Origin: Balneola sp.
GTDB lineage: Bacteria; Bacteroidota; Rhodothermia; Balneolales; Balneolaceae
Assembly (NCBI GenBank): GCA_003712055.1
Contig: RHLJ01000001.1
Location: 992,001-1,056,000 of the forward strand
Reading direction: 5' to 3'
Length of the DNA stretch: 64,000 bases
The translations under genes and the position numbers were made by a program. How positions within the stretch are numbered: the first letter of the stretch is position 1; each line of letters starts with the position of its first letter. Of this stretch, positions 6,824 through 38,932 are shown piece by piece. The notes beneath the pieces were generated by a model. The model worked only from the letters and a program-made list of their open reading frames with translations. It was not told the origin of the DNA and ran no database searches.

Positions 6824-7113
6824 CAATTAACTTATTTAATCCTTTGTTTGTTGAGCGCCTTAAAGTTAAGGTAAACTGGCGCTATTATTTGCCTTATTTC
6901 GTTACACAAACCAAGTTTTTTGGAGAAATGTTCTTATCTTCGTCGCAATAATTTACTAACTAGCTTATACTTCTAAACCTAAGTTATTTAGAACGGATTT
7001 AAATAAGAAAACCCTGCATCTAAGTATTCAATTCGAGTCAAAAATTCGATAGCTTTGCGCGGCTTCTTATTGAGCGTTAATGCTCAGGTTTGAAATATAA
7101 AATCAGCATTTTT
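6824..7113. promoter_or_regulatory. Divergent control region between DUF420 gene and act operon
   Basis: This 290-bp AT-rich non-coding stretch separates two divergent respiratory genes and must hold the promoter of the whole act-cta operon. I found no convincing -33/-7 pair of the Bacteroidota type, no strong Shine-Dalgarno before actA, and no clear operator palindrome. The assignment rests on position only. Confidence 0.4.
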
Positions 7114-7758
7114 ATGGCGCAGATTTTCCCTAAGTGGACAAATCAAGTTCCTCGAAAATTACTTATCGGACTTATAGTTACTGCAAACGCAGTTATTCTT
7201 GGAATTTGGTACTTCTTCTCTCCCGAATATACCGATGTAGGTTACGCCCCTGTTCAACCGGTTCCATACTCTCACAAAGTTCACGTTGATAAGCTTGGTC
7301 TTGATTGCCAGTATTGTCATACCTCTGTGTTTGAGTCTAAGCAAGCGAACATTCCTCCTACACAAACTTGTATGAACTGCCATAGCCAGATTAAAACGGA
7401 CAGCGAAAAACTCGCTCCTATCCGTGAAAGTTGGGAAACAGGCAAACCTGTAGAATGGGTTAGAGTAAATAACCTGGCTGATTATGCTTACTTCAACCAT
7501 GCTGCCCATGTGAATGTAGGTGTAGGTTGCGAGAGCTGCCACGGAAGAATTGATAAAATGGAAGTGGTTTACCAATCTGAACCACTAAGTATGAGCTGGT
7601 GCCTTGATTGCCACCGCGAACCTGAAAAGTACCTCCGCCCTGTTGAAGAGGTGACTACCATGGGGTATAAGGCTGAGAACCAACTGTTGTTGGGAAGCGA
7701 ATTAGTTAAGAAAAATAATGTAAGCCCTCCGCAGTATTGTCAGGGTTGTCATTATTAA
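7114..7758 (+). CDS. actA: ActA, pentahaem cytochrome c of alternative complex III
   Basis: ActA receives electrons from ActB and passes them on within alternative complex III, the bc1-independent menaquinol:cytochrome c oxidoreductase. Five CxxCH motifs are visible (CQYCH, CMNCH, CESCH, CLDCH and CQGCH at the very C-terminus), the expected pentahaem count. One N-terminal transmembrane helix (about residues 15-36) anchors it. I start at the ATG 7114 (214 residues); the longer frame begins with a TTG at 7090 and adds eight residues with no ribosome-binding site. It is the first gene of a 13-kb operon, 32 bp before actB. Confidence 0.95.
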   Translation: MAQIFPKWTNQVPRKLLIGLIVTANAVILGIWYFFSPEYTDVGYAPVQPVPYSHKVHVDKLGLDCQYCHTSVFESKQANIPPTQTCMNCHSQIKTDSEKLAPIRESWETGKPVEWVRVNNLADYAYFNHAAHVNVGVGCESCHGRIDKMEVVYQSEPLSMSWCLDCHREPEKYLRPVEEVTTMGYKAENQLLLGSELVKKNNVSPPQYCQGCHY

Positions 7759-7790: not shown

Positions 7791-10700
7791 ATGAGCGAAG
7801 TTACACAGAATACATACTGGAAAAGCTTAAACGAATTAGCTCAGAATAAAGAATATCAAAATTTTGTTGAACGAGAATTCCCTGAGAATGCCACCGAACT
7901 AAAAGACGGTGTTTCCAGAAAGGGATTCCTCCGAGTGATGGGAGCGTCTATCGCACTTGCAGGTTTTGCTGCTTGCCGTCGACCAGTTCAAAAAATTCTT
8001 CCTTATTCTCAACAACCTGAAGACATTGTTCCCGGCATTCCTCTTTTTTATGCCACTGCAATGCCATTCCAAGGTAACCTTACTGGTCTAGTTGTTGAAA
8101 ACCATCAGGGACGGCCTACTAAAGTAGAAGGAAATGACCTTCACCCTGCGAGTTTAGGAAATACCAATTCCTATCATCAGGCATCTATCCTTGAAATGTA
8201 CGATCCTGATCGTTCGAGAAGCCCGCTCCGCAATGGGAGTAAAGCTACTACTGATGAATTCATCAGCTTTGCAAGTGAGCATTTCTCTGATACCAACAAG
8301 AATATCCTATTTATATCAGAAGCTAATTCTTCACCGACTTTTCAATCGCTTAAAGAAGAAGCTTTAAACAAATTTAGAAACGCAAGCTGGGTTACTTTCG
8401 AGCCTTTTGGTGAGAATGCTATTGTTGAAGGAGCCCAAATCGCTTTCGGAAGTAGACTTCGTACTCTATACAATTACACCAATGCCGATGTAATTGTATC
8501 GCTTGACGATGACTTCCTATCTCCTACTCATCCAAATAATGTAGAATATGCAAAGCAGGTTACATCACGCAGGAAAGTAACCAGCACCGGCGATTCTATG
8601 AATCGAATCTATTCGGTAGAGAACGGATTTACTCTAACTGGTTCTTATGCTGATAACAGGCTAAGAGTTAAAGCAAGTGAAGTTGAAGCTTTTGCCAATG
8701 CGCTTGCAGGAGAGCTTTCTTCCAGAATTAGCGGGCTTAATGCCTTTAGCGGAGTTAGCAATAAATTCACCGGGGACAACTTCATTACTGCAATGGCAGA
8801 TGACCTAGCTTCTCACGCCGGACGTTGTGTCGTTTCAATCGGTTTTGATCATTCTCCAAGCGCTCATGCCATTATCAATGCTATTAATGTGGCGTTGGAT
8901 AATGTTGGAAGCACTGTAAGTTATCTTGAAGTTCCTTCCATTGATGATCAAAGTAATTTTGAATCTTTTTCTAGCGCAGTATCAGCTCTTAACGCAGGCA
9001 ATGTTGATACCGTTGTATTATTAGGTACAAATCCGGTCTTCACTGCTCCTGCTGATTTATCCTTTGCAAGTGCGCTTTCTAATGCAGCAGAAGTAATCCA
9101 TTTTGGAAGTTACAGAGATGAGAGCTCTACAAATGCAAACTGGCATGTAGCGCGTTCTCACTATCTCGAAGCATGGGGCGATGGATATTCATTTGGTGGT
9201 GCACGTTCTGTGATTCAACCACAAATTCAACCATTGCATGATTCCTTAAGCGATATTGAATTCCTTGGTGCTATCGTAAATGGTGAGAAAGTATCTGGCC
9301 ATGACCTTGTCAAAAGTACCTTTAACGGGTACTACCGCTCAAATTTTGAAAATCGTTGGAAAGATATCCTCCATGATGGAATTGACATTAATGATGGATA
9401 TAGAACGGCTAACGTTCGATTGAGATCTGTTTCTCCAAGCGATGCTACACCAATTAATGGTATTGAAATAGTTATTCGACCTGACTATTCCTTATATGAT
9501 GGCCGGTTTGCTAATAACGGTTGGCTTCAAGAGTTACCAGACCCAATGACGAAGATTACCTGGGACAATGTGGCTCTTATGAGTCCAGCTACAGCTGCCA
9601 GCCTTGGAGTCGAAAACGAAGATCTTGTGAATGTTACTGTTAATGGCACTTCTATCACCATTGCTGCATGGATTCAACCAGGTCACGCTGATGAATCTAT
9701 TACGCTAAATGCAGGATACGGAAAAGAAGGAATCGGGCGAGTTGCTGATGTAACTTCCGATACTTCTCAGCTTTTTGATAGTACGGTATTTTCTGGTGGA
9801 ATAAATGTATATCCACTGGTACAGTCAAGCGCACTATTATTTAATTCAGGTAGTATTTCAAAAGCAAGTGGAACATATAGCATTGCTTGTGTTCAGGATC
9901 ATCATAGCCTTGAAGGCCGTGATATGTATCGTCAGGCTACACTTGAGAAATACAAAAAGACTCCTGAATATGCTTCATTCGCCTATGTTCATAAATATGA
10001 AGTTCCAGGCCAAAAGGAAGCAAACGAAAAAGGGGAAGACGATCTCATCTCTCTGTTTGATGAGCAGACCTATCCTGATTATGAGCCACAATGGGGAATG
10101 GCCATTGACCTGAACTCATGTTTTGGTTGTGGTGTATGTATTATTGCCTGCCAAAGTGAAAATAACATCCCAGTTATTGGAAAAAGGGAAGTTAGTCGTG
10201 GCCGTGAAATGCATTGGATCAGAAATGACCGCTATTATATGGGAGATGAGCATGATCCTCAGGCTGTTCATCAGCCAGTTCCTTGTATGCACTGCGAATT
10301 AGCCCCTTGTGAGCAGGTTTGCCCAGTGGCTGCTACTACACATAGTGATGATGGAATGAACCAAATGACGTATAACCGTTGTATTGGTACTCGTTATTGT
10401 GCAAACAACTGCCCATTCAAAGTTCGAAGATTTAACTTCTTCAACTATCCAAAAGAATATCTGACAACCGGAGAAGATCCGGATATCATCCAAATGGCGA
10501 TGAACCCCGAAGTAACTGTTCGTTTCAGAGGGGTAATGGAGAAATGTACTTACTGTGTACAGCGTGTTAACAGAGCTAAAATCAATACCAAAATTGAAAC
10601 TGGCTCACCAAAACCTGCTGACGGTACTGTAAAGACGGCTTGTCAGCAAGCTTGCCCTGCTGATGCCATTTACTTCGGAGACTTGACTGATAAAAACAGT

Positions 10701-10844
10701 GAAGTTTCACAAATGAAGTACAATGAAAGAAATTATTTGATGTTGGAAGAACTCAATGTCCGTCCAAGAACATCATACATTGCCAAATTAACCAATCCGA
10801 ACCCGGCATTGGTAGATGATACTAAACAGGAAGCTGCCCACTAA
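7791..10844 (+). CDS. actB: ActB, molybdopterin-like/iron-sulfur subunit of alternative complex III
   Basis: A 1017-residue fusion. The N-terminal two thirds resemble a molybdopterin oxidoreductase but without a visible cofactor ligand. The C-terminal part is a four-cluster ferredoxin domain with [11 protein letters not shown] (from about residue 776), [26 protein letters not shown] and CTYCVQRV...CQQACP. In the family it relays electrons from quinol oxidation to ActA on the periplasmic side. A Tat-like signal is seen at about residues 41-60 as [12 protein letters not shown], with Lys in place of the second Arg, followed by a Cys (GFAAC) that could be lipidated. The stop overlaps the ActC start by one base (TAATG). 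Confidence 0.95.
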
Positions 10845-12271
10845 TGAGTAAATACGAATATATACCGGAACCCGCTCTTGTTAAGGGAAATCATGATTTT
10901 GCCAGTATCACTAAACTGGTTACTGATGTAAATCTTCGCCCTACTCCAAAATTATGGTACCTGTTCATGCTTATTTCGAATGCACTACTTGGTGTATTCC
11001 TTATTGCAGTTGGTTACCTGGTTTGGGAAGGAACCGGAATTTGGGGCTTAATGAACCCTGTTGGTTGGGGATGGGCGATTATCAACTTCGTATGGTGGGT
11101 TGGTATTGGTCACGCGGGAACTCTAATTTCTGCGATTTTATTCCTCTTTAGGCAAGATTGGCGTACTGCCATCAACCGATTTGCGGAAGCGATGACAATT
11201 TTTGCTGTAATCTGTGCCTTGATGTTCCCTGGTATTCACGTTGGAAGAATTTGGGTGATTTATTGGGTATTCCCGCTCCCAAATCAAATGGCAATGTGGC
11301 CAAACTTTAATTCTCCGCTACTTTGGGACGTATTTGCCGTTTCTACCTATTTCACCGTTTCACTGCTTTTCTGGTATGTAGGTCTTGTTCCGGATTTTGC
11401 TACGCTACGTGATAAAGCCACCGATAAAATTCGAAAGATAGCTTACGGTATCGCTTCATTAGGTTGGACAGGTAGTGGTCGTGCATGGTGGAATTACGAA
11501 AAAGCGTATATGATTTTAGCCGGTTTGGCTACTCCACTGGTACTTTCTGTACACACTATTGTATCCTTTGACTTCGCCGTTTCAATGATTCCGGGATGGC
11601 ACACTACCATCTTCCCTCCTTATTTCGTTGCTGGTGCGATTTTCTCAGGTTTTGCCATGGTGCTCACCTTAATGCTTGTTGCGCGAAAGGTGTATGGCAT
11701 GGAAGATATCATGACGGATGACCATATGGAGAAAATGAATATCATTATTCTGGTTACGGGTTCTATGGTAGGCTTTGCCTATATGATGGAGTTCTTCATT
11801 GCCTGGTATAGTGGTGTTGAATATGAAAAAGCAATTTTCATGCTGAGGGCGACCGGTCCATATGCCTGGGCATATTGGATTATGATGTTATGTAATGTGA
11901 TCTCTCCGCAGGTATTCTGGTCAAAGAAATTAAGACGCCACGTTGGATTCACTTTCTTTATTTCCATTGTGGTGAACATTGGTATGTGGTTCGAGCGATT
12001 CGTAATTACGGTTACTTCACTTGCCACCGACTATCTACCTTCATCCTGGGATTACTTCTCCCCAACCATTTGGGACGTACTTACTTATGTGGGAACCTTC
12101 GGTATCTTCTTTACTTTCTTCCTTGCATTCTTGCGCTTCCTGCCGATGATTGCGATCGCGGAGATTAAAGCGGTAATGCCACAGGCTGATCCTCATAATT
12201 ATGACGAGGAGACCCAGGAGTATCATCCCCACGAAATTGAAGTTCCAACCCCTAAAGCTGAAACGGTATAA
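10844..12271 (+). CDS. actC: ActC, NrfD-like quinol-oxidising membrane subunit
   Basis: A 475-residue polytopic membrane protein of the NrfD/PsrC type with about ten helices; in alternative complex III it carries a menaquinol site beside ActB. Hallmarks include the helix with [21 protein letters not shown] and the [17 protein letters not shown] stretch. The start overlaps the actB stop by one base, so the two are probably translationally coupled. A hydrophilic His/Glu-rich tail ends the protein. It is paralogous to ActF in the same operon. Confidence 0.94.
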
Positions 12272-12276
12272 ATACT

Positions 12277-12825
12277 ATGAGTAAAGAAACCAATACTAAG
12301 CTTTACGGCATCCTCGCTGAATTCAAAAACCCAAAAGCGTTAATCGACGCTTCTAAAAAAGTGGTTGAAGCCGGATATGATAAATTTGATACTTACGCCC
12401 CTTTTCCGATTCATGGAATTGACAAGGCGATGAACCTTAAGAAATCCAAACTTGGATGGATTGTACTAGGTCATGGGTTACTCGGATTTAGTGGAGCAAT
12501 ACTTATGATGTACTGGATGTCAGCAATCGACTATCCAATCAATATCAGTGGAAAACCATTTTTTAATGCACCGGCATGGGTACCTGTTACTTTTGAATTA
12601 ACGGTACTTCTTTCTGCTTTTGGTGCAGTATTTGGAATGTTCTTCTTAAACGGACTTCCAAGACTTCATAACCCTTTATTTAATGTTGATCGCTTCAAGA
12701 AGGCTACTGATGATGGCTTTTTCGTATGTATTGAAGCGACAGACAGCAAATTCCAGGAAGATTTGGTTCGCCAGCTTTTTGAAGAAGCTGGAGCTACTCA
12801 TATCGAGGAAGTGTATGACGACTAA
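12277..12825 (+). CDS. actD: ActD, DUF3341 subunit of alternative complex III
   Basis: A 182-residue protein with the DUF3341 layout: a soluble N-terminal domain (LYGILAEFKNPKALIDASKKVVEAGYDKFDTYAPFPIHG), two transmembrane helices (about residues 58-82 and 96-125) and a soluble C-terminus. ActD is a structural membrane subunit of alternative complex III with no cofactor. It starts 5 bp after actC, and its 3' end lies 22 bp before the chosen start of actE. Confidence 0.92.
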   Translation: MSKETNTKLYGILAEFKNPKALIDASKKVVEAGYDKFDTYAPFPIHGIDKAMNLKKSKLGWIVLGHGLLGFSGAILMMYWMSAIDYPINISGKPFFNAPAWVPVTFELTVLLSAFGAVFGMFFLNGLPRLHNPLFNVDRFKKATDDGFFVCIEATDSKFQEDLVRQLFEEAGATHIEEVYDD

Positions 12826-12847: not shown

Positions 12848-13846
12848 ATGCATTTAAAAAAGACACTTTCCATTGTTGTGCTAGGTGCTGTCCTAGTGGG
12901 ATGTAGAGGTACTGTTTCTGAGAAGCCTGCCATCCATCCTAACATGAACATGGATCAGCAACCAAGAAAAGAAGCACAGGAGGAAAATGCCTTCTTTGAA
13001 GATGGCCGCTCTATGCGCCCTCCTGTTGAAGGAACCGTTGCTCGGGGTTACCGAAAAGCTGACTTGGCTTATTATGAAGGAGTTGATGAAAACGGTGAGT
13101 GGGTTGAAAACACTCCTGTAGAATTCACCAGATCCTTCCTTTACAGAGGAAAAGAGCGCTACGAAATTTACTGTACTCCATGTCATGGAATAACTGGAGA
13201 TGGACAAGGTATTATTATGACCGGGCAATACGGTTATGTGCCTGCTCCTACCTTCCACCAGGCTCGATTAAGAGAAGCTCCCGATGGCGAGCTTTATTCA
13301 GCTATCTACAATGGAGTACGAAATATGCCTTCCTATGCACATCAGGTTAAAGTTGAAGACCGATGGGCTATTGTAGGATATATCCGAGCATTGCAAGCAA
13401 GTCAAAATGCAAGTGAAGAAGAAATTGCTGAATACGACATTGACCTGGATGAATTACAAGCTGAATTTACAGCAGAAGAAGAAAGGCTTGCTGCACTCGA
13501 AGAAGCAAGAACTCCACAGGATGCAGGAGTCGTTGCCATTGCTGCTAGAGGAGAGGAATTAATTACTCAATATGCTTGCGCTGTTTGTCACTCTAACGAT
13601 GGAAGTTCTTTAATTGGCCCATCATGGTTAAATGTTTATGGCAGTGAAGGCCAAGTGGTAACTGAGGCAGGTGAAACGATTACTGTTGTTAAGGATGACG
13701 AATATCTCATAGAATCGATTGTTAATCCTTACGCCAAAATCGTAGACGGATATGATCCACTTATGGCTAATGCTTATGGATCTCTTTCAGAAAGCGACCT
13801 GCAATCAATCGTGGAATATTTGAAAACCATCACGGATAATAACTAA
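12848..13846 (+). CDS. actE: ActE, dihaem cytochrome c lipoprotein of alternative complex III
   Basis: A 332-residue periplasmic lipoprotein with lipobox LVGC. It holds two haem-binding motifs, CTPCH (residues 109-113) and CAVCH (244-248), separated by an acidic, Glu-rich linker. The first domain matches the single-haem ActE known from Rhodothermus and Flavobacterium complexes. The second is an additional class I cytochrome domain closely resembling the C-terminal domain of CtaC four genes downstream. I chose the ATG 12848 because it gives a clean lipoprotein signal; the open frame runs upstream into actD, and an ATG at 12815 would only add a hydrophilic leader. Its likely job is to export electrons from complex III to the oxidase. 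Confidence 0.93.
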   Translation: MHLKKTLSIVVLGAVLVGCRGTVSEKPAIHPNMNMDQQPRKEAQEENAFFEDGRSMRPPVEGTVARGYRKADLAYYEGVDENGEWVENTPVEFTRSFLYRGKERYEIYCTPCHGITGDGQGIIMTGQYGYVPAPTFHQARLREAPDGELYSAIYNGVRNMPSYAHQVKVEDRWAIVGYIRALQASQNASEEEIAEYDIDLDELQAEFTAEEERLAALEEARTPQDAGVVAIAARGEELITQYACAVCHSNDGSSLIGPSWLNVYGSEGQVVTEAGETITVVKDDEYLIESIVNPYAKIVDGYDPLMANAYGSLSESDLQSIVEYLKTITDNN

Positions 13847-13872: not shown

Positions 13873-15087
13873 ATGAGTCATAAGCCTACAATAACAGATT
13901 CTTTACAATTCTCACCAGACAGCAAGCTGCCCCAAATTTTGTTTGGAGTTGGTGCTGTTGGATTAGTTGCTAGCGTGATCGGCTACTTCGTTAATTCAGA
14001 ACAATTCTTCTTCTCCTACTTAGTAAGTTTTACCTTTTTCACTGGTATTGCTCTTGCATCGGTATTTATGGTGATGTTTCACCACATCACTAAGTCTAAG
14101 TGGGGAGTAGTTGTTAGAAGGATTCCTGAAACTTTCGGTTCTAACCTTTGGATTTGGGCACTGTTCTTCATTCCTATATTACTAGGAATGCACACGTTGT
14201 ACCATCATTGGACCGAGCCTTCGCTTTTCGATCCGAATTCACCAAACTACGACTATATAGTAGCTGGTAAAGAAGCTTATTTGAATACTCCTTTCTTCAT
14301 TATTAGACAGATCATTTATTTTGCCATATGGGGATTTGTGGGCCATAAACTTTATAAAGCTTCTGTAGAACTTGAGAAAACGGGTGATTGGGGAATTACC
14401 ACATTAATGAGAAAAGTCAGTGCTCCTGCAATTCCTCTGTTTGGACTTTCTATTGCTTTTGCCAGCTTTGACTGGTTAATGTCTCTGGATCCTCACTGGT
14501 TTTCAACCATGTTTGGAGTGTATTTCTTCGCTATAAGTTTCCAGAGTTTCTGGGCTATCATGATTTTAATGGTATTCTTCCTCCACAGAAACGGATACCT
14601 AAAAAATACCATTGGTCAGGCACACCTTTATGATCTTGGTGCATGGCTCTTCGCTTTTACAGTATTCTACGCGTACATAGCATTTAGCCAGTTCCTGTTA
14701 ATCTATTATGCTAACCTTCCGGAAGAAACACTTTGGTTCTACCACAGAATGGAAGGTAATTGGAAATACATTACCTATGGTTTATTGCTATTCCGTTTTG
14801 TTCTGCCATTCCTGGTATTACTGAACAGAGAGCAAAAACACCGAAAAGGAGTACTAAGGTTTGTTGCTATCGTCGTAGTAGTGATGCACTTCCTCGAAAT
14901 TTATTGGATTGCAATGCCTACGCTCAGCGAACACGGAATTCACTTTAGCTGGATTGACATTACCACATTTTTAGGGCTTGGTGGGATGTTCTTTGGGCTA
15001 TTCTTTCACAAGTTCAAACAAAACAGCATGATTCCAGAGAATGACCCAAGATTGGATGAGTGCCTTGAAAAAACGTATCACCACTAA
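13873..15087 (+). CDS. actF: ActF, second NrfD-like membrane subunit of alternative complex III
   Basis: A 404-residue polytopic membrane protein with about ten helices, a paralogue of ActC. The central helices carry the ActF-typical patterns FASFDWLMSLDPHWFSTMFG and HLYDLGAWLFAFTVFYAYIAFSQFLL. In solved complexes ActF sits beside ActC and is thought to contribute to proton movement or to structure. It starts 26 bp after actE and is followed at 14 bp by the small membrane protein gene. Confidence 0.93.
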   Translation: MSHKPTITDSLQFSPDSKLPQILFGVGAVGLVASVIGYFVNSEQFFFSYLVSFTFFTGIALASVFMVMFHHITKSKWGVVVRRIPETFGSNLWIWALFFIPILLGMHTLYHHWTEPSLFDPNSPNYDYIVAGKEAYLNTPFFIIRQIIYFAIWGFVGHKLYKASVELEKTGDWGITTLMRKVSAPAIPLFGLSIAFASFDWLMSLDPHWFSTMFGVYFFAISFQSFWAIMILMVFFLHRNGYLKNTIGQAHLYDLGAWLFAFTVFYAYIAFSQFLLIYYANLPEETLWFYHRMEGNWKYITYGLLLFRFVLPFLVLLNREQKHRKGVLRFVAIVVVVMHFLEIYWIAMPTLSEHGIHFSWIDITTFLGLGGMFFGLFFHKFKQNSMIPENDPRLDECLEKTYHH

Positions 15088-15100
15088 TATTTGATCGATT

Positions 15101-15484
15101 ATGTCGGATCACATTGAAGATTCAAAGACTAAGATTTCTACTACCTCAGGAGATGAAGTTACTCTTGAGACCGTAGATAGCTCATTTGCTGGCGCCGTTA
15201 CTCACGGTGTTAATGATGACAACATGGATTATGGTACACTCTTCTTTTGGTCAGGATTAGGGATTGTCACGGTGATAGTATTTGTTGTGGGATTAATCTT
15301 TTTTGCTCAGTTTAGTTTCTTAAATGCACAGAGAACCGTTTCTGAAAATAGTTCATATACTGAAATCACAGAAATGAGGGCATCTCAAACCGAGCAATTA
15401 AACTCTTTTGGTGTTGTTGATCTGGAAGATGGTGTATACCATATCCCAATCGATGAAGCCATCAATAATATAGCTGTCGATTAA
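15101..15484 (+). CDS. Small single-helix protein between actF and sco
   Basis: A 127-residue protein not assignable to a named family. It has a hydrophilic, Ser/Thr/Asp-rich N-terminus (about 45 residues), one transmembrane helix (about 47-70) and a C-terminal part ending in the motif VYHIPIDEAINNIAVD. Similar short proteins with a terminal I-P-I-D-x-A motif sit at this place in other act-cta clusters, as I recall, so it may be a small accessory subunit or assembly factor of complex III or the oxidase. No Cys or His pair suggests a metal site. It is embedded in the operon, 14 bp after actF and 6 bp before sco. Confidence 0.65.
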   Translation: MSDHIEDSKTKISTTSGDEVTLETVDSSFAGAVTHGVNDDNMDYGTLFFWSGLGIVTVIVFVVGLIFFAQFSFLNAQRTVSENSSYTEITEMRASQTEQLNSFGVVDLEDGVYHIPIDEAINNIAVD

Positions 15485-15490
15485 TTACTG

Positions 15491-16324
15491 ATGAGACGCA
15501 TTGCACTGTTAGCATTTTATTTGCCTGCAGTGCTCCTGATTCCTTTTAAAGCTGAAGCTCAACTTAACAAAGAGCAGCCCGAAGCACTGCAAGGCGTTGG
15601 AGTAGATGAATTTTTAGGAGAATACATCCCCTTAGATGCCAAATTCTCAAATTCGCTAGGTGATAGTGTAACTATCGGCTCCCTCCTTTCTGAAGACAGA
15701 CCAGTTATTCTGAATCCTCTTTACTACGAATGCCCTATGCTTTGTGGCCTGGTAATTGACGGTGTATTGAATGTGGCTGATGATCTGGCATGGCAAGTTG
15801 GAAAAGAATACGACATCATCTCTTTTAGTATCGATCCGGAAGAAAATCACGAGCTAGCCGCTTCATATAAAGAAAGATATGTATCAAAACTTAACCAGCC
15901 TCGCGCACAGGAAGGCTGGCATTTCTTAACCGGCAAGAAATCAGAAATTGATAAAATTATTGATGCTGTAGGTTTTAAATACAATGAGGTAGAGGGAACC
16001 GGGGAATTTGCACATAGTGCTGCTATCATTATGTTGAGCCCGGAAGGGAAAATCACCCGCTATCTTTATGGCATTCAATACAATGAATTTGATGTACGCA
16101 ATGCACTGTATGAATCAGCCGATGGAAAGATCGGAAGTACCCTCGAAAAGGTACTTATGTTTTGCTATCAATTTGATCCAAATTCCAATAGTTATGTACC
16201 TGTAGCTGTCAATATTATGAAGGTTGGCGGCTTGGCTACACTAATAATTCTTGGTATCTTTCTCAGCCTCTTTTGGCTTCGCGAAAGATCAAAAAAAGTA
16301 ACCACTAATATCGATTTCCAATAA
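15491..16324 (+). CDS. SCO1/SenC family copper chaperone for the CuA site
   Basis: A 277-residue thioredoxin-fold protein that delivers copper to, or reduces the thiols of, the CuA centre of CtaC. It has an N-terminal signal peptide, the copper ligands CPMLC (CxxxC) inside NPLYYECPMLC, and the distal His in EFAHSAAIIML. A C-terminal transmembrane helix with a basic stop-transfer (LRERSKK) anchors it, an arrangement seen in SCO proteins of this lineage. The stop overlaps the ctaC start by one base, which fits translational coupling to its client. Confidence 0.93.
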   Translation: MRRIALLAFYLPAVLLIPFKAEAQLNKEQPEALQGVGVDEFLGEYIPLDAKFSNSLGDSVTIGSLLSEDRPVILNPLYYECPMLCGLVIDGVLNVADDLAWQVGKEYDIISFSIDPEENHELAASYKERYVSKLNQPRAQEGWHFLTGKKSEIDKIIDAVGFKYNEVEGTGEFAHSAAIIMLSPEGKITRYLYGIQYNEFDVRNALYESADGKIGSTLEKVLMFCYQFDPNSNSYVPVAVNIMKVGGLATLIILGIFLSLFWLRERSKKVTTNIDFQ

Positions 16325-17265
16325 TGGGCAGACTATTCGATTTCATGCTCCCGGAAAATAAATCTCCGCTTACGGCAGATTCAACCGACGGGCTTTTTCA
16401 CTTCATCAATGAAGTGAGTCTCATCTTCTTAATTGGTATAACAATAGCACTTGTTTACTTCGCCATTAAATACAGAAGAAAATCAGAAGACGACAAAACT
16501 CCTGTAATCACTCACAATAATACTCTTGAAATTACCTGGTCGGTAATCCCCCTTCTCATCGTTATGGTGATCTTTGGGTGGGGATATTCTGGTTGGTTGA
16601 ATCTTAAAGCAGTACCGGATGATGCCTATGAAATTCATGTTACTGGTTTTAAGTGGAACTGGAGCGTGAGCTACGAAAATGGAGCACAAACTTTGAATGA
16701 AATCCATGTTCCAAAAGGACGTCCCATTAAGTTGGTAATGCAATCACGAGATGTATTGCACTCTTTCTTTGTTCCAGATTATAGAGTAAAGCATGATGTG
16801 GTTCCGGGACGTTATACCTACGTATGGTTCCAGGCTGAAGAGTCAGGCGAATCTGTGGTATTCTGTACTGAATATTGTGGAACCAGCCATTCCGATATGT
16901 TAGCTAAAGTAATTGTTCATGAGCCTGAAGATTTTGAAACCTGGCTGGAGCTTAATGGTGGGGGTGTTCAGGGCACACCAGTTGAGCAAGGGCAACAACT
17001 TGTTGAGCTTCAAGGGTGTCAAACCTGTCACTCTGTGGATGGCTCACCTATGATTGGCCCAACCTTTAAAGGTATTTGGGGCAGAACAGAGCAACTTGCT
17101 GATGGTAGTTCTTACACTGTTGATGAAAATTATATCAGAGAATCTATTCTTTACCCTGGAGAGAAAGTCGTTGCTGGATATGACAATGTAATGACTCCTT
17201 ATGAGGGGCGTCTAAGCGACGATGAAATCACAAATATCATAGAATATCTAAAAACACTTGAGTGA
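16324..17265 (+). CDS. ctaC: Cytochrome c oxidase subunit II with fused cytochrome c (caa3 type)
   Basis: A 313-residue subunit II. Two N-terminal helices precede a cupredoxin domain with the complete CuA set: the His in VLHSFF, then [12 protein letters not shown] (Cys 181, Cys 185, His 189, Met 192). A C-terminal cytochrome c domain starts near residue 220 with CQTCH (232-236) and ends with the standard IIEYLKTL helix. The fusion defines a caa3 oxidase that takes electrons through its own cytochrome. No cleavable signal is needed. The CtaD start lies 1 bp after the stop. Confidence 0.96.
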
Positions 17266-28683: not shown

Positions 28684-29916
28684 TTAATGTAAAGCTTTTG
28701 CTATGGTATTAACCACTTTTTCTTGCTGATCATCATTCAGTTCTGGATAAATGGGAAGAGATAAGCTCTGTTGACTTGCACAATATGATATCGGACAGTC
28801 TTCTTTTTGATAGCCTAACTCTGAAAAACACTCTTGTATATGAAGCGATACGGGATAATAAATTGCAGAACCAATTCCCTCTTGCTTTAACATATCTACT
28901 ACTCTATCTCTGTTCTTTACTCTAATAGTATACTGATGATAAATATGCCTTCCTCCGTTTTCTGGATTACCAGTAGTCTCAAGAGGAAGGATCAGCTTGT
29001 CGGAGTTTAGTTTACAATCTGTACCCAGCGAATCACAATCATTTGCACAAATAAGATCACTAGATTGTACAAGCTCACTTTTATTAAATAACATATTGTA
29101 TTTTAGTGCTTTATCACGACGAGTCTCAGACCACTGATCAAGATATTTTAATTTAACTGAAAGTATTGCTGCCTGGATAGCATCTAACCGACTATTAATT
29201 CCTACAAACTTGTGATGATATTTAGGCCGTGCCCCATGTAGGCGTAGGATATCTAATTTTTGAGCTAGCACTTCATCATTTGTAGTTACCAAACCGGCAT
29301 CTCCATAAGCTCCCAGGTTCTTACTTGGGAAAAAACTAAAACATCCTATATCTCCAATATTTCCAGCCTGACTACCTTTGTACCTGGAACCAATGGATTG
29401 AGCTGCATCTTCGATCACATATAAATCAAATCTTTTGGCAATATCCATAATTGGACCCATTTCAGCCATTTGACCATAAAGATGCACCGGGATTATTGCT
29501 TTTACTCTCTTAAGGTCAGGCTTTATCCGATCATAAACTTTTCCCTTTCCTTGAAGAAACTCTTCTATTTTTTTTGGATCCAAATTAAAACTCAAAGGAT
29601 CGATATCTATAAAAACCGGTATAGCGCCTAACCTGTGTACCGCGCCAGCTGTAGCAAAGAATGTGAATGGTGGAAGTATAACATAGTCCCCAGGTTTTAG
29701 ATCAATTGCCATCAAAGCGAGAAGTAACGCATCTGATCCTGATGCACATCCAAATGCAAAATCCGATTCACAGTACTCTGCAACTTCTTTTTCAAACTGC
29801 TTAACAAAAGCTCCCATTATGAAGTGTTGGGATTCCAACACTTTTTTTAAGGACAGCTCTATTTCATCTCTAAGCGTCTCATATTGGGCCTTAAGATCTA
29901 GGAGAGGAATATTCAT
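28684..29916 (-). CDS. DegT/DnrJ/EryC1 sugar aminotransferase, WbpE-like
   Basis: A 410-residue PLP enzyme. The Schiff-base Lys is in [13 protein letters not shown], with [14 protein letters not shown] binding the cofactor phosphate and [10 protein letters not shown] holding the Asp that contacts PLP. In the WbpE role it would transaminate UDP-2-acetamido-3-keto-GlcNAcA with glutamate. That role is inferred from the adjacent WbpD-like acetyltransferase, WbpB-like dehydrogenase and WbpA-like dehydrogenase. About 30 residues near 275-305, rich in Cys/Asp, look like an insertion compared with typical members (about 360-380 residues). The start overlaps the acetyltransferase stop (ATGA). Confidence 0.88.
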
Positions 29917-30497
29917 GAGCTTAAAGGAAAAACCTTATTGTCTTTAAATTGGTACCGTTCACCTGTTTCTTTACAAGTAGCCTCATTCTCATTATTAAAT
30001 ATTAATCGATTCCCGGATTTTGAAACCCATCCTATTTGCTTACCGGGATTGCCAACTACTAATGCAAATGCAGAGACGGGTTTTGTAATGACAGTTCCAG
30101 CTCCAATAAATGAGTATTCTCCAATTTCATTTCCACATACAATAGTAGCATTAGCGCCAATTGAAGCTCCTTTACGGACTATGGTTTTTTTATACTCATC
30201 CTTTCTCTCAACATGACTACGAGGATTAATCACATTGGTAAAAACCATACTCGGACCACAAAATACATCATCTTCTAGTATTACAGCGTCGTAAATAGAG
30301 ACATTATTCTGGATTCGGACATTATTCCCAATTACCACATCATTACCAACAAATACATTTTGCCCAAATACACAGTCATTGCCTATTCTTGCGTCAGGCA
30401 TTATGTGAACCCAGTGCCAAATTTTAGTTCTAGCTCCTATTCCATCTGGGTTCTCTACTATAGCTGTAGAGTGAATAAAAAGTTCGTTTTCCGACAT
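29913..30497 (-). CDS. Left-handed beta-helix N-acetyltransferase, WbpD-like
   Basis: A 194-residue acyltransferase built of hexapeptide repeats ([20 protein letters not shown] and following turns) with the catalytic-type loop [31 protein letters not shown]. The pattern matches the WbpD/WlbB family that acetylates the 3-amino group of UDP-GlcNAc3NA, giving UDP-2,3-diacetamido glucuronic acid. It is coupled to the aminotransferase by a 4-bp overlap and follows the Gfo/Idh gene by 8 bp. Confidence 0.88.
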
Positions 30498-30505
30498 TAT
30501 CGAAC

Positions 30506-31534
30506 CTATTTAGTAAATCCTGCAGACTTATAAATTCTCTCAATTATACTAACTACTTTCATTCCATCAAAAGAAGTCGCCATTGGTTCTTCTTTACCAT
30601 TCAATACATCCACTATATTTTCAAAAACATAATGATGGTTAGCTGCACTACCTTTGTAAGGGCCATAATCATTGGGAGGATTTGTCGCTGGTAATTCTGG
30701 CATCTCATAACCTTGAATATGGCAATATTCTACTTCATTCATGTACTGTCCTCCTACTTTGAAGCTACCTTTTGTCCCTACAATAGTAATACTACTCTCC
30801 ATATTTTTATCCCAGCATGAAGTAGAATAATTGATAGAACCCATCCCTCCATTTTCAAACTCGAATTGTGCAAAACCAGAATCGTCAAAATCTACCAAAT
30901 CAGAATGGGTGTAATTCTTAACAATAGCTTTGGGTTCTTTTATATCTCCAAATACCCAATACATGATATCCACAAAATGACTGAACTGAGTAAATAGAGC
31001 TCCACCATCTAAGTCCTTTGTACCCTTCCAATCACTCACTTTATAATATCTAGCATCCCGATTCCAATAACAATTTACCTGAACCATAAGAGTATCTCCT
31101 ATGAGACCACTCTCGACCATATTTCTCATCCAAACAGAAGGGGGACTATACCTATTCTGTTTAACTACGAACACTTTTTTATTAGACTCTTTCTCTGCTT
31201 TAATGATCAGTTTAGCTTCCTCTTCTGATAATGCCATCGGTTTTTCAATCAGTACATGATATCCATGTTCTAAAAGTTTTATTGCATATTCAGCATGAAA
31301 GCCATTAGGAGTAGCAATTGTTACGATTTCGGAATTCCCTTTGTCCTCATCTAAAAAAACAACAATTGACTCATAAGTTATACAATCCAATCCTAGAGAA
31401 TTAATAGAGTCAAATTGCTTAGTGTTGACATCAACTACCGAAACGAGTTCAGAATGACTGTATTCCTGAATAATTTTTGCATGGCGTTGACCAATTCTTC
31501 CAAAACCGATTACTGAAAATTGAATCGCATTCAC
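30506..31534 (-). CDS. Gfo/Idh/MocA oxidoreductase, WbpB/WlbA-like
   Basis: A 342-residue NAD-dependent oxidoreductase with the Rossmann start [15 protein letters not shown], the EKPMAL motif at about residue 96, and the C-terminal dehydrogenase domain ([18 protein letters not shown]). In the WbpB/WlbA role it oxidises C3 of UDP-GlcNAcA to the 3-keto sugar. It starts with GTG (31534) preceded by a good AAGGAG at 7 nt. Its neighbours supply the steps before (WbpA-like) and after (WbpE-, WbpD-like). Confidence 0.87.
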
Positions 31535-31546
31535 CTCGAATCTCCT

Positions 31547-32719
31547 TTAATCCTTTCCAAAGAGATCTCTAGTGTAGACTTTATCTTCAACGTCCTTGAT
31601 CTCATCTACCATACGATTTGCTACAATTACATCAGATAACCGCTTAAATTCACCTAAATTGGTAATTACTCTGGAATGGAAAAATTCTTCTTCTTTCAGA
31701 TACGGTTCATAAACAACTACTTCTATTCCCTTTGCTTTAATCCGTTTCATGATTCCCTGAATTGCACTAGCCCGAAAATTATCTGACCCTGCTTTCATCA
31801 CTAATCGATATATACCAACAACTTTAGGGTTCTTCTTTATTATTTGGTTAGAAACAAAATCCTTTCGGGTTCTGTTTGCATCAACAATAGCACCGATCAA
31901 ATTATTAGGAACATCTTTATAATTTGCAAGAAGCTGCTTGGTATCCTTTGGTAAGCAATAACCACCATATCCAAAAGATGGATTGTTGTAATGGTCTCCA
32001 ATTCTTGGATCCAATCCTACTCCTTTTATAACCTGAACTGTACTTAAATTGTGTGACTCACAGTATGAGTCCAGCTCATTAAAATAAGCCACCCTCATCG
32101 CAAGGTAGGTATTTGAAAAAAGTTTAATTGCTTCGGCTTCAGTGGAATCTGTAAATAAAACTGAAATTTCCTCCGAAGGTTTCACAGCTCCCTCAATTAA
32201 TAAATCAGCAAAAACTTTGGCCCTTTCAGATTGCTCTCCTACTACAATTCTTGATGGATATAAATTATCGTATAACGCTTGGCCTTCGCGCAAAAATTCG
32301 GGAGAAAATAGGATATTATTACAGTTAAACTCTTCCTTAGCATGTTTTACATAGCCTACAGGAATGGTAGACTTTATTATCATGGTAGCATGGGGGTTAA
32401 TGCTCAACACATCTTTAATTACTGCTTCTACTGATCTTGTATCGAACTTATTTGTCTCCGAGTTATAATTCGTAGGAGTAGCAATAATTACGAAATCTGC
32501 ACCTTTATAAGCCTCTTCTTTATCAACCGTTGCTACGAGGTTTAAATCTTTATCTGATAAGAAACTTTCTATTTCTGAATCACTGATTGGTGATTTTTTA
32601 TTATTAATTAGATCAACTTTTTCCTCGACTATGTCAAGTGCTACTACTTGATGATGCTGTGACAATAAAACAGCTAATGACAAACCAACGTATCCAGTTC
32701 CAGCTACAGCAATCTTCAT
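31547..32719 (-). CDS. ugd: UDP-glucose 6-dehydrogenase
   Basis: A 390-residue nucleotide-sugar dehydrogenase of the short Ugd type, making UDP-glucuronate with two NAD. Seen are [13 protein letters not shown], the [11 protein letters not shown] block, the catalytic Cys in [14 protein letters not shown], and the [15 protein letters not shown] signature that separates UDP-glucose dehydrogenases from the UDP-GlcNAc/ManNAc group. The product can feed the epimerase at 55475-56425. It is 12 bp upstream of the Gfo/Idh gene. Confidence 0.9.
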
Positions 32720-32725
32720 ATAACT

Positions 32726-34009
32726 TTATGCTTTATATATTTTTTTTGAATCTTTGGCTTTCGAGTAGACATTTCTAGTATCCACAATACAATTTGACCA
32801 TTCTTCTAATTGCTCATAATTAACATCTTTATGATCGGTAACAATTAAAGCAGCGTCAAAAAACTCTATCGTTTTTTTATTCCATCTTATACTTTCCTTC
32901 CCCTTCCAATTCATGTGCTGCCTACTTATAGGAATAACAGGAATCCATGGATCATAGAATTCGACTTCTGCTCCTAATGATATTAATCTATCCATGATAG
33001 GAAATGACGGCGACTCCCTCATGTCATCAACATTAGGTTTATATGCAATCCCTAACACCAAAATCTTACTTCCATTTACTGACTTTGATTGTTCGTTCAA
33101 GGCAAGGATGAGTTTATTAATTACAAACTGAGGCATCGCGTTATTCACTTCGCCTGCTAGTTCAATGAACCTTGTATTTAATCCAAATTCTCTAGCCTTC
33201 CAAGTAAGATAAAAGGGATCTATGGGAATACAATGTCCACCAAGCCCCGGACCAGGTGTGAATTTCATAAACCCAAATGGCTTTGTAGCTGCAGCTTCTA
33301 TTACCTCATGAATATCAATTCCCATCGCATCCATCACTAACTTCATTTCATTAACAAGTGCAATGTTTACAGAGCGAAAAATATTCTCCAGCAGTTTTGC
33401 AGACTCTGCAATTTTTGCTGAAGAGACGGGCACCACTTCTTCTAAAGCACTTGAGTATAGCTCAACAGCCATTTCTCGGGCTACATCAGAAGAAGAACCT
33501 ACTATCTTAGGAATGGATTTAGTGTCAAAGTTTGGGTTACCAGGATCCTCTCGTTCAGGACTGTATGCAACATAAAAATCAATATCAGACTTTAACCCCG
33601 AACCATCTTCCAATATTCTTGCTAGGAGCTCATCTGTTGTTCCTGGCCAAGTAGTGGATTCTAAGATAACCACTTGACCTCTTCTTAAATACTTTGATAT
33701 GACTTTTGTTGTTTCAACAACAAAAGTCATATCTGGTTCACGATGATGATCTAATGGAGTAGGAACACAAATAAGAATAAAGTCAACCTCAACAAGCTTA
33801 GAGAAATCTGAAGTTACCTCACATCTGTCAGAATTTACTAAGGCTTCAATCTGACTATTTTTAAAGTGTTTTATATAACTTTTACCAGTGTTAAAAGAAT
33901 CGATTTTACTTTGATCTATGTCAAAACCTATTACGTTTTGTCCTGCTTGATGAAATGTGTAGAGTAGTGGAAGACCAACATAACCAAGGCCAATAATTCC
34001 TGTTTTCAA
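32726..34009 (-). CDS. UDP-N-acetylglucosamine 6-dehydrogenase, WbpA-like
   Basis: A 427-residue nucleotide-sugar dehydrogenase of the WbpA/WecC/TviB class: GLGYVGLPLLYTF at the N-terminus, the conserved SPEREDPGN block, the catalytic Cys in GPGLGGHCIPIDPFYL, and LGIAYKPNVDDMRESPS. It is expected to oxidise UDP-GlcNAc (or UDP-ManNAc) to the uronic acid. Given the WbpB/D/E-like set next door, UDP-GlcNAcA is the best product. The start appears to be TTG (34009), since no in-frame ATG or GTG precedes the Rossmann motif. An 84-bp gap separates it from the sugar transferase. Confidence 0.88.
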   Translation of the reverse strand: MKTGIIGLGYVGLPLLYTFHQAGQNVIGFDIDQSKIDSFNTGKSYIKHFKNSQIEALVNSDRCEVTSDFSKLVEVDFILICVPTPLDHHREPDMTFVVETTKVISKYLRRGQVVILESTTWPGTTDELLARILEDGSGLKSDIDFYVAYSPEREDPGNPNFDTKSIPKIVGSSSDVAREMAVELYSSALEEVVPVSSAKIAESAKLLENIFRSVNIALVNEMKLVMDAMGIDIHEVIEAAATKPFGFMKFTPGPGLGGHCIPIDPFYLTWKAREFGLNTRFIELAGEVNNAMPQFVINKLILALNEQSKSVNGSKILVLGIAYKPNVDDMRESPSFPIMDRLISLGAEVEFYDPWIPVIPISRQHMNWKGKESIRWNKKTIEFFDAALIVTDHKDVNYEQLEEWSNCIVDTRNVYSKAKDSKKIYKA

Positions 34010-34093
34010 CTTACCAAGATTTTTTAACTATTTTTTTAAGTAAGATATGATAATGTGAACTTAAAAGAGATAATAAGCTCTTAATGAAGGAAG

Positions 34094-34798
34094 TTAATGG
34101 GCGTTTGTATTTAAATGGAGCATTTGAAGAACCGTATTAAAGATGATCTTTATGTCTAACCAGAAAGATTGTTTCTCAACATAAATTAGATCCCAGTTTA
34201 ACCTCTCCCGCATATGATTTTCATCGAAAGTACCTCCACGAAAACCTTTTACCTGGGATAGTCCCGTAATTCCCGGTTTGACTGCATATCTGTAATAAAA
34301 ATCGTCAAATTTTTTGTTCCAATAGCTACACTCATCTTCCATGTATGGCCTAGGGCCCACTAAACTCATATCTCCTTTAAGAACATTGAATAGCTGTGGG
34401 AGCTCGTCCAAATTTGATTTTCTTAAAAAACTTCCAAAACTAAAAATCCGTACATCTTTTTTTTGTGTCAACGCCGGTTTTTCGCTCTGTGGATTATCAT
34501 AAAAAACATGCATTGTTCGAAACTTATAACATGTAAATGATTTACCATTCCTCCCAGTACGTTTTTGCTTAAAAAGTATACTTCCATTAGAAGAAATTCT
34601 TATTCCCAAAGCCAAAAAAGGAAAAATAACTAAAAACGGTACAAACCCAATTAAAGAAAGAATAATATCTAAAAAACGCTTACCTAAATAATCCTTCTGG
34701 GTAAGCTTGTAGAAATCGTCGGGAAATACAAAACGCCCATTGATTATTTTTTTCCGACTCCTTTCAGCCTCTTGTAAAATTGTATCCCTAACCGTCAT
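34094..34798 (-). CDS. Initiating phosphoglycosyl transferase (bacterial sugar transferase family)
   Basis: A 234-residue monotopic phosphoglycosyl transferase that starts the repeat unit by moving a phospho-sugar to undecaprenyl phosphate. It has the re-entrant hydrophobic segment (KRFLDIILSLIGFVPFLVIF), the FKQKRTGRNGKSFTCYKFRTM block, the catalytic DE pair in KSNLDELPQLFNVLKGDMS, and VGPRP. It is the minimal form without the N-terminal four-helix and CoA-binding-like region of WcaJ/WbaP. The likely sugar (for example a UDP-GlcNAc derivative) cannot be read from sequence. Confidence 0.92.
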   Translation of the reverse strand: MTVRDTILQEAERSRKKIINGRFVFPDDFYKLTQKDYLGKRFLDIILSLIGFVPFLVIFPFLALGIRISSNGSILFKQKRTGRNGKSFTCYKFRTMHVFYDNPQSEKPALTQKKDVRIFSFGSFLRKSNLDELPQLFNVLKGDMSLVGPRPYMEDECSYWNKKFDDFYYRYAVKPGITGLSQVKGFRGGTFDENHMRERLNWDLIYVEKQSFWLDIKIIFNTVLQMLHLNTNAH

Positions 34799-34830
34799 TA
34801 GAGTATTTTTTATTAAAAAAATAATATAAC

Positions 34831-35949
34831 CTAATTTTGAATTTCATTCAATTTATCAGAAATAATTAACTTTAGTCTTTCAATAAAATGCACCCTATCA
34901 AATCTTAAGGCATTATTTTTTAATGCTTTAGGATCGAATTTAAGCGATTCAAGTTTTTTAACCGCCTGATTTAAGGAATCAGGAGTTTGTTGATCAAAAA
35001 AAACAGCCGAACCTTCATCTGGGTTAACTTCTTTATCAACCATGGTATCTAAGGCCCCCCCGGCCCGAAAACATATTACTGGCTTTCCAGAAGCATTTGC
35101 CTCTATAGGGGTTAATCCATAATCCTCGTATTGAGGAAATATAAAAGCCTTACAATTCGAATATAGTTCTATTAATTCTCGATCTGACACCCCTTCCTTA
35201 AATTCAATATTACTATTCGCAATACTTTTTAAGTATTCCTTTTGAGTTCCATTTCCAACTATAATTAATTTTTTGCGAGATTTATTAAAAGCATTAATGG
35301 CCAGATCCACCTTTTTGTAGGGCTCAAATCTTGAAACCAATAGATAATAATTTCCTTCTGTTTCCGAAACTGAAAATTTTCCAATATTAATAGAAGGTTC
35401 TAAAATTGGTATTTCCTTATCAAATTTATATGCCTTTCTAATCCGCTCCCTAGTCTCTTTAGTCATGGCTATAAACATATTTGCTTTTTGAGCATGCGCA
35501 AAATCAATTCTTTTCAGGATTTGAACAATAAAAAATTTTAATTTATTTATGAAATAATTAGACATTCCCATTGAGTATGAATCAGGTCTCCAAGCTAACC
35601 TGAATGGGGTATAACAGTAAAAAATTTTAACTGAATTATCACTCATCTTCGGATATTTAGCACAATGTGTTGTTGAAACCAATATCAAGTCGTAATCTTT
35701 TAGATTTATTCTTGACATCGATAAAATCACAAATGGAAAGAAAAACAATTTAAACAAGCGTTCACTTCTTATAAACCTATCCACAAAAGAGGTTCTTATT
35801 CTATATTTTTTAAACTCTGGGTACGTTTTTTCGGGTAGATACACACTTGTAAATATATCAGCATTTGGGTAGGCCTCACAAAAGTCAAGAAAAACTCTTT
35901 CAGCTCCACCTTTCCCGAACAAAACATCATGAACTAATGCAACTTTCAT
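34831..35949 (-). CDS. Glycosyltransferase family 4, mannosyltransferase-like
   Basis: A 372-residue retaining GT-B glycosyltransferase. The N-terminus has the acceptor-side loop GKGGAERVF; the C-terminal half has the donor-site motif EDYGLTPIEANASGKPV (E-x7-E type) and LLVSRFEPYKKVDLAI. It resembles WbaZ-type mannosyl/rhamnosyl transferases. With GDP-D-rhamnose genes directly upstream, a GDP-sugar donor is a reasonable inference. It starts 1 bp before the end of the RMD gene region. Confidence 0.88.
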   Translation of the reverse strand: MKVALVHDVLFGKGGAERVFLDFCEAYPNADIFTSVYLPEKTYPEFKKYRIRTSFVDRFIRSERLFKLFFFPFVILSMSRINLKDYDLILVSTTHCAKYPKMSDNSVKIFYCYTPFRLAWRPDSYSMGMSNYFINKLKFFIVQILKRIDFAHAQKANMFIAMTKETRERIRKAYKFDKEIPILEPSINIGKFSVSETEGNYYLLVSRFEPYKKVDLAINAFNKSRKKLIIVGNGTQKEYLKSIANSNIEFKEGVSDRELIELYSNCKAFIFPQYEDYGLTPIEANASGKPVICFRAGGALDTMVDKEVNPDEGSAVFFDQQTPDSLNQAVKKLESLKFDPKALKNNALRFDRVHFIERLKLIISDKLNEIQN

Positions 35950-36858
35950 TTAATACTTTAGCATTTTTTCTAATAACTGAGGAAACCTAATTTTTGGCTT
36001 CCAGCCTATCTCTTTGATAATTTTACCATTATCTCCAATTAAGATAGGCATATCACTAGGCCGCATGAACTTTTCGTTTTTTCTAACATCAATATCAGTA
36101 TCAAGAATTTTTTCAAGAATTCTAATTGTATCTCTTATTGAGTAACCAATATTAGAACTGATATTATATGTTTCTAGATTTTTACCCTTGTCTATTAAAT
36201 CGATGTAAGCTTCTACAATATCATTTACATCTGTAAAATCTCTTACAGCGTCGATATTACCCAGTTCTAAAACTAATTTATCATAATTTGCTCTTTGTCG
36301 ATTAAGTGTATTAATTACTTTAGCAATAACAAAGTTCTCAGATTGTCCTTGTCCAGTATGATTAAAAGGTCTTGCTAAAACTATTTTTTTAATTTTTTCT
36401 TTATAAGCTAACACAAGTTTTTCCATAGCAAGCTTACTGATTCCATAGTGATTAATTGGATTCGTGGGAAATGACTCAGCTATGGGATCTTTATAGTTTC
36501 CATAAACATAGCCGGAACTAACCATAAGAATAGTGGATTCAGGAACATATTCTTGGGCGCTCTCAAGTATATTCAAACTCCCCTGCAAATTTACATCATA
36601 GATGGTTGATATATTTTTTTCAACTGGACTTGATATTGCTGCTAAATGGAACACATAATCTGGCCTTTGTTCTTTAAATAATTTTGATACCTCCTCAAGG
36701 TTTCGAATATCAATTTGATAAATTTGATTTTGTTTATTTCCGGATAATTTTGAAGTAATTATAACTTCAAAGTTTTTGGTTCTTAATTTTGGAACTAAAT
36801 AGCTACCTACAAAACCTTCTCCACCCGTAACCAAAACTTTAGGCTTATTTTGTTTCAT
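35950..36858 (-). CDS. rmd: GDP-6-deoxy-D-mannose reductase (GDP-D-rhamnose synthase)
   Basis: A 302-residue short-chain dehydrogenase/epimerase. The Rossmann start is TGGEGFVGSYL, the catalytic YGISK follows SSGYVYG, and the RMD signature ARPFNHTGQGQ is present. It reduces GDP-4-keto-6-deoxymannose to GDP-D-rhamnose. A talose-forming reductase is the main alternative. Its start lies inside the GMD gene (14-bp overlap), matching the consecutive reaction steps. Confidence 0.85.
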   Translation of the reverse strand: MKQNKPKVLVTGGEGFVGSYLVPKLRTKNFEVIITSKLSGNKQNQIYQIDIRNLEEVSKLFKEQRPDYVFHLAAISSPVEKNISTIYDVNLQGSLNILESAQEYVPESTILMVSSGYVYGNYKDPIAESFPTNPINHYGISKLAMEKLVLAYKEKIKKIVLARPFNHTGQGQSENFVIAKVINTLNRQRANYDKLVLELGNIDAVRDFTDVNDIVEAYIDLIDKGKNLETYNISSNIGYSIRDTIRILEKILDTDIDVRKNEKFMRPSDMPILIGDNGKIIKEIGWKPKIRFPQLLEKMLKY

Positions 36859-37897: not shown

Positions 37898-37898
37898 A

Positions 37899-38918: not shown

Positions 38919-38932
38919 ACTAGTTCTCTTAC

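Follow-up and report, generated by a model that had tools for sequence, protein, structure and literature searches.

A dihaem ActE with a caa3-type second cytochrome c domain in Balneola sp. and its family: a candidate tethered relay between ACIII and the caa3 oxidase

The analysed stretch of Balneola sp. DNA (64,000 nucleotides, referred to as the window) carries an act cluster, encoding alternative complex III (ACIII), in the order ActA-B-C-D-E-F, followed by a small membrane protein, Sco and then the caa3 subunits CtaC-D-E-F. The gene under study, actE, occupies the place of this subunit between actD and actF. Its mechanical reading frame opens at 12683; with the start set at 12848 the product acquires a lipoprotein-type signal with Cys19 of an LVGC box, a residue invariant in 26 of 26 aligned ActE sequences. 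The features of the locus, in window coordinates, are as follows.

7090..7758, + strand: ActA, five CXXCH motifs
7791..10844, + strand: ActB, Fe-S/CISM subunit
10844..12271, + strand: ActC, NrfD-like
12277..12825, + strand: ActD (PF11821, E 9.2e-68)
12848..13846, + strand: ActE, dihaem variant, 332-aa putative lipoprotein with its mature N-terminus presumably at Cys19 (LVGC box)
13103..13411, + strand: ActE domain 1 (D1; residues 86-188), the canonical ActE haem domain, matching Rhodothermus marinus ActE 6f0k_E in sequence and structure
13172..13186, + strand: CTPCH haem motif of D1 (residue 109)
13412..13534, + strand: acidic linker (residues 189-229), with a helix at 200-224 in the model
13535..13840, + strand: ActE domain 2 (D2; residues 230-331), a cytochrome c of the caa3 subunit-II type, matching 1w2l in sequence and structure
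13577..13591, + strand: CAVCH haem motif of D2 (residue 244)
13763..13765, + strand: Met306, putative axial ligand of the D2 haem, at a conserved position
13873..15087, + strand: ActF, without a Pfam match, named from position and homologues
15101..15484, + strand: small membrane protein between ActF and Sco, which we take to be ActG and call so here
15491..16324, + strand: Sco copper chaperone
16324..17265, + strand: CtaC, caa3 subunit II, CuA domain and C-terminal cytochrome c, with a single CXXCH (residue 232)
16963..17262, + strand: cytochrome c domain of CtaC, the nearest relative of ActE D2 in this genome
17258..20017, + strand: caa3 subunits I, III and IV (CtaD, CtaE, CtaF)

The initial annotation described this ActE as dihaem, and the 332-aa frame proved real, with CXXCH motifs at residues 109 and 244; its remark that the ActE of complexes described so far is monohaem is in line with passages of two papers (PMC5928083; PMC8552683). 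Having two CXXCH motifs instead of one, the protein is therefore a dihaem variant, in which D1 alone corresponds to an ordinary member. Against solved structures, residues 10-195 matched R. marinus ActE (6f0k_E, E 1.4e-69), while the best match of residues 230-326 was 1w2l, the c domain of R. marinus caa3 subunit II (E 9.7e-18). The same assignment was obtained by structural comparison (6f0k_E, Z 19.5; 1w2l, Z 16.5 with an rmsd of 1.6 Å over 97 residues) with a model built from 85 sequences (mean pLDDT 91.8, pTM 0.60), in which the domains are to be trusted and their mutual placement is not; 26 sequences had earlier yielded a model of low quality (mean pLDDT 69). Thus, D2 has the sequence, the fold and the predicted His/Met ligand residues of a caa3 subunit-II c domain, but is fused to ActE instead of being covalently joined to a CuA domain.

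D2 shares 36 of 95 residues (38%) with the c domain of CtaC from its own operon (BLASTP E 2e-24); the local alignment score is 187, where 1000 shuffles gave at most 54, and homology of the two domains, as judged from sequence, is firm. Internal duplication of D1 as the source of D2 was not supported, the local score of 37 being within the range of shuffles (maximum 49). Among nine haem ORFs of this genome that were compared (ActE, CtaC and seven others), CtaC gave 62 bits with D2, and none of the seven others exceeded the 14 bits of a CcoP-like frame. The start of D2 had been called nearly the same as a stretch of CtaC; the motifs are present, yet this likeness was overstated, as CAVCHSNDGSSLIGPSW and the CtaC stretch are identical at 10 of 17 positions, counted by eye. 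The matching IxEYLKT ends were found as claimed (IVEYLKT and IIEYLKT). The CXXCH of D2 is kept in all 26 aligned sequences (25 from Balneolaceae and one from M1805, a genome of another family), and its late Met in 25 of 25 (24 Balneolaceae and M1805). Mean pairwise identity rises from 51.5% for D2 through 61.7% for the CtaC c domain to 71.9% for D1. Net charge was considered as a docking clue and discarded, Balneolaceae D2 and CtaC-c both being strongly acidic, with no complementarity.

The haem number of ActE in relatives, which the initial annotation had proposed to survey, was followed through the 128 genomes of the order, 92 of them Balneolaceae; 116 gave an ActE match. The match extends over the whole of D2 in all 86 Balneolaceae that have one and in M1805 (L082, apparently the same as G286), the sole genome of its family, whereas in three other families it ends within D1 in 11/11, 4/4 and 14/14 matching genomes (0/29 reach D2; the last family has 20 members, one match being cut by a contig end). 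Dihaem ActE is consequently a mark of the Balneolaceae, not found in three of the four sister families. In a sample of 296 Bacteroidota genomes, among the matches listed, only 36 of 36 Balneolaceae and G286 reach D2 together with D1. Beyond this phylum, dihaem ActE was detected in 23 of 45 matching Myxococcota genomes (195 searched), one further genome having both ActE halves as adjacent frames, and in 4 of 56 matching Planctomycetota (246 searched). ActD-ActE fusion frames of other Bacteroidota (~380-455 aa) were rejected as dihaem ActE, holding one haem motif only.

A duplication of the domain between reductase and oxidase, as suggested at the outset, is the reading that the trees favour. 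In the tree of 63 rows, whose resolution is limited by its 98 columns, Balneolaceae D2 form one clade (99/99) and are split from the rest together with Balneolaceae CtaC-c (94/94), a grouping repeated in a wider quick tree (87 SH-aLRT). The identity of D2 to the CtaC c domain of the same genome (45.6%) barely exceeds that to the domains of other Balneolaceae (44.4%); recent copying or gene conversion from CtaC was therefore rejected, and the event is an old one. Hence, while the homology stands, descent of D2 from an old duplication of the Balneolaceae CtaC c domain is favoured and not proved, as the AU test also retained D2 outside all CtaC (p 0.231) and all ActE-D2 as one clade (p 0.128). 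The latter topology, and the likewise retained clade of Balneolaceae and M1805 D2 (p 0.086), would suit another scenario, in which D2 did not come from Balneolaceae CtaC and all ActE-D2 share one older origin, followed by many losses or horizontal transfer. The haem-to-haem spacing in M1805 (135 residues) is also in line with it: the CXXCH motifs are 134-135 residues apart in the Balneolaceae and M1805 sequences listed, against 110-121 in Myxococcota and 113-150 in Planctomycetota. However, the best tree sets the other D2s apart from the Balneolaceae ones, a clade of Balneolaceae and Myxococcota D2 was rejected (p 0.018), and in the D1 tree the Balneolaceae adjoin monohaem Balneolales (93) and dihaem Myxococcota lie within a group including monohaem Myxococcota (98). 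The mono- and dihaem states require at least 7 changes on this D1 tree, one of them due to an apparent split gene (L196), so that several gains of D2 would be a simpler reading than repeated loss, and we regard a single older origin as unlikely.

The position of the c domain was tallied over the fetched operons showing both ActE and CtaC, five duplicate places being omitted; this set was picked by ActE similarity and is hence a non-random sample. One haem in each of the two subunits was found in 80 operons (65 next to a five-haem ActA, 14 in stretches devoid of ActA and one with a cut ActA), and two haems in ActE with one in CtaC in 30. Another 20 operons combine one-haem ActE with a c-less CtaC, including L110, L118 and L144, which are to be discounted for their cut or broken CtaC frame; in three of the c-less-CtaC operons ActA has six haems, as in the Flavobacterium type. 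Two haems in ActE with a c-less CtaC occur once (L194). Wherever CtaC was seen together with a dihaem ActE in Myxococcota (7 of 7: L194 and six stretches with CtaC upstream; in the other dihaem Myxococcota CtaC falls outside the fetched stretch), it is c-less, as if the domain had moved to ActE. The similar fusions in Myxococcota and a few Planctomycetota therefore suggest a module that moves between subunits.

Some less common arrangements were also encountered. In L199 (Myxococcota; CtaC frame of 517 aa) CtaC bears two tandem c domains and ActE one haem, the extra haem being on the oxidase side. The ActG protein between ActF and Sco bears a CtaC-type c domain in L125 (11819-12544), there besides the CtaC one, and in L198 (9069-9794). 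In the Bacteroidota operons L038-L066 ActD and ActE are fused, CtaC is c-less, and a separate one-haem membrane protein of ~310 aa lies between ActF and Sco; in L031 (same class, family f7) ActE is monohaem, CtaC is c-less, and an ActE-like protein of 310 aa with two haems is encoded separately. A dihaem ActE in L210 (9367-11070) is directly followed by a free 178-aa near-copy of its own D2, as if caught in tandem duplication, and in L196 (4644-5589) the ActE D1 and the c domain are in two overlapping frames, which is either a split gene or a sequencing frameshift.

In R. marinus, ACIII reduces HiPIP and a soluble cytochrome c and can also feed caa3 directly (PMC5928083). The soluble cytochrome c query was taken from the R. 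marinus genome G003 and identified as 3cp5 (E 1.9e-70); the ActE of the same genome (L021) has one mismatch to 6f0k_E in 209 residues. HiPIP (PF01355) matches were obtained in 4 of 92 Balneolaceae, all weak, one being below the curated cut-off and one running across a stop codon, against 32 of 36 genomes from the rest of the order and, across the class, 96 of 152 genomes outside the Balneolaceae; this contrast amounts in effect to one evolutionary event, the counts being dominated by shared ancestry, so that the Fisher p of 2e-21 is not independent evidence. Relatives of the R. marinus-type soluble cytochrome c occur in 58 of 92 Balneolaceae, so that D2 was not seen to track loss of this carrier as a family rule. 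Searches with PF01355 and the G003 query found neither carrier in the Balneola genome studied here. By hand tally, both are absent from 21 of 58 Balneolaceae that are >=95% complete, this genome included, and from 0 of 10 such relatives. Four relatives within the order lack HiPIP; three of them have the R. marinus-type cytochrome c, and the fourth (G360, 90% complete) has neither. In M1805, dihaem ActE occurs alongside both carriers, HiPIP and the soluble cytochrome c, and this genome may be either an intermediate or a counter-example. The additional c domain at the N-terminus of Flavobacterium johnsoniae ActA (6btm_A) is similar to the R. marinus soluble cytochrome c (L181:1441-1770; E 1.7e-8), as if a soluble carrier had been captured on ActA.

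Among known systems, the R. marinus one is the closest: its ActE (6f0k_E) is the same subunit and shares the D1 fold, the putative lipobox and the order of an operon that continues into caa3, but it has one haem, 209 aa and no D2, and its genome (G003), unlike that of Balneola, encodes HiPIP and soluble cytochrome c. The domain that shares the D2 sequence and fold, 1w2l, is fused in R. marinus to the oxidase CuA domain, whereas here it is fused to ActE. Actinobacteria, reported to be without small c cytochromes, use the dihaem cytochrome cc (QcrC) of the bcc-aa3 supercomplex; in this system too, the quinol-oxidising complex has a subunit with two class I c domains and is wired to an oxidase of the aa3 type (PMC8361435). 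QcrC differs in belonging to the bc1 family and in its transmembrane-helix anchor; its chains align to D1 alone, and the present operon is act, not qcr, with no QcrA/QcrB partnership. Balneolaceae dihaem ActE would thus work like the cytochrome cc system, by analogy, and is not a member of it. In F. johnsoniae the extra c domain is likewise on an ACIII subunit facing the oxidase, namely at the N-terminus of ActA, where it apparently replaces the subunit-II c domain (PMC5928083), while the Balneolaceae retain both.

The whole of these data is, in our opinion, probably best explained by D2 being a fused caa3-type c domain that serves as a tethered relay from ActE to caa3 without a free carrier. 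A copy of the subunit-II c domain would have been joined to the C-terminus of ActE by way of a linker of ~40 residues that is acidic and partly helical. D1 would stay in the usual position of ActE, where the haem chain of ActA ends; in R. marinus the ActE haem is reported at ~9 Å from ActA haem V (PMC5928083). D2, in a working mode like that of actinobacterial cytochrome cc, would act as a carrier on the linker, taking electrons from the D1 haem and passing them to the c domain (or CuA) of the neighbouring caa3 CtaC, and transfer from ACIII to caa3 would then need no free carrier. The 25-residue helix of the linker, its placement not fixed by the model, would span ~37 Å (1.5 Å per residue), long enough for a short swing or a strut. 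While the identity, conservation, distribution and fold of the domains come from computation directly, we infer the haem loading, the direction of electron flow and the supercomplex. The built-in wire of the initial annotation, whose interpretation as a whole is partly supported, fits the loss of HiPIP and a genome without the two known soluble carriers. Counting against the relay are M1805, with dihaem ActE and both carriers, the soluble cytochrome c retained by 58 of 92 Balneolaceae, and the lower conservation of D2 than of the CtaC c domain or D1; the AU test, moreover, retained other origins of D2.

The supercomplex that the initial annotation attached to the wire has a precedent in R. marinus, for which direct ActE-to-caa3 transfer and a 20 Å map of the ACIII-caa3 supercomplex with ActE near subunit IIc are reported (PMC5928083); ActE has one haem there, and the second haem is therefore not needed for a supercomplex. 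That the two R. marinus complexes associate and exchange electrons without an extra haem is compatible with a D2 whose main part is in assembly or docking, keeping caa3 at ACIII while the D2 haem is off the main path, and so is the greater variability of D2 compared with D1. Still, a redox role is indicated by the CXXCH and the late Met conserved in all aligned D2, and by the Myxococcota, in which ActE carries the domain that CtaC lacks; we consider a mainly docking function quite improbable. D2 might alternatively be a second output port, a tethered cytochrome c feeding cbb3 or periplasmic peroxidases, with D1 passing electrons to caa3 directly as in R. marinus. This genome does encode a cbb3-type oxidase beside caa3 (2 COX1 matches; CcoO/CcoP-like ORFs) and a MauG/peroxidase-like dihaem ORF, with no match for HiPIP or the R. 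marinus-type cytochrome c, and ActE has been speculated to send electrons beyond the supercomplex (PMC8552683). D2, however, is related to the caa3 entry domain and not to cbb3 cytochromes, and CcoP-like frames are present in monohaem relatives too, so that in the few genomes examined D2 does not track cbb3; an output port thus seems to us unlikely.

Returning to the tethered relay, it may be one instance of a broader pattern, in which the oxidase c domain is a module repeatedly changing subunit at the ACIII-oxidase junction. Its most common site would be CtaC; it would have been copied to ActE in Balneolaceae and some Planctomycetota, moved to ActE in Myxococcota, placed on ActG in L125 and L198, doubled within CtaC in L199, and set on ActA in the Flavobacterium type. 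The Balneolaceae copy would have made soluble carriers dispensable and left ACIII and caa3 self-wired, convergently with actinobacterial bcc-aa3. We put this generalization forward tentatively, considering it nearly, though not quite, as probable as its negation.

Direct transfer from ActE to caa3, supercomplexes of ACIII with oxidases and an extra c domain on ActA are already known; the variant that is new, as far as we have seen, is a dihaem ActE that is fixed in a family and whose second domain is of the oxidase type. A literature search over titles and abstract openings, which is weak evidence, returned no description of dihaem ActE. Refojo 2013 ('variations on the same theme') may mention one already. 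The hand-over from ACIII to the oxidase is debated, ActE being a direct donor in R. marinus and dispensable in F. johnsoniae, and a direct test of it is offered by naturally occurring forms in which the entry domain of the oxidase has been copied or moved to ActE. Balneolaceae without HiPIP or R. marinus-type cytochrome c are expected to rely on D2, and the monohaem sister families are not; if the relay is true, it is a built-in wire that probably replaces a loose electron carrier.

Apart from the respiratory operon, the window contains a surface polysaccharide cluster at 28684-43310 (- strand) and 57848-60181 (+ strand), with genes for a DegT aminotransferase, UDP-sugar dehydrogenases, a glycosyltransferase, an O-antigen ligase-like protein, UDP-galactopyranose mutase and a Wzz/tyrosine kinase.
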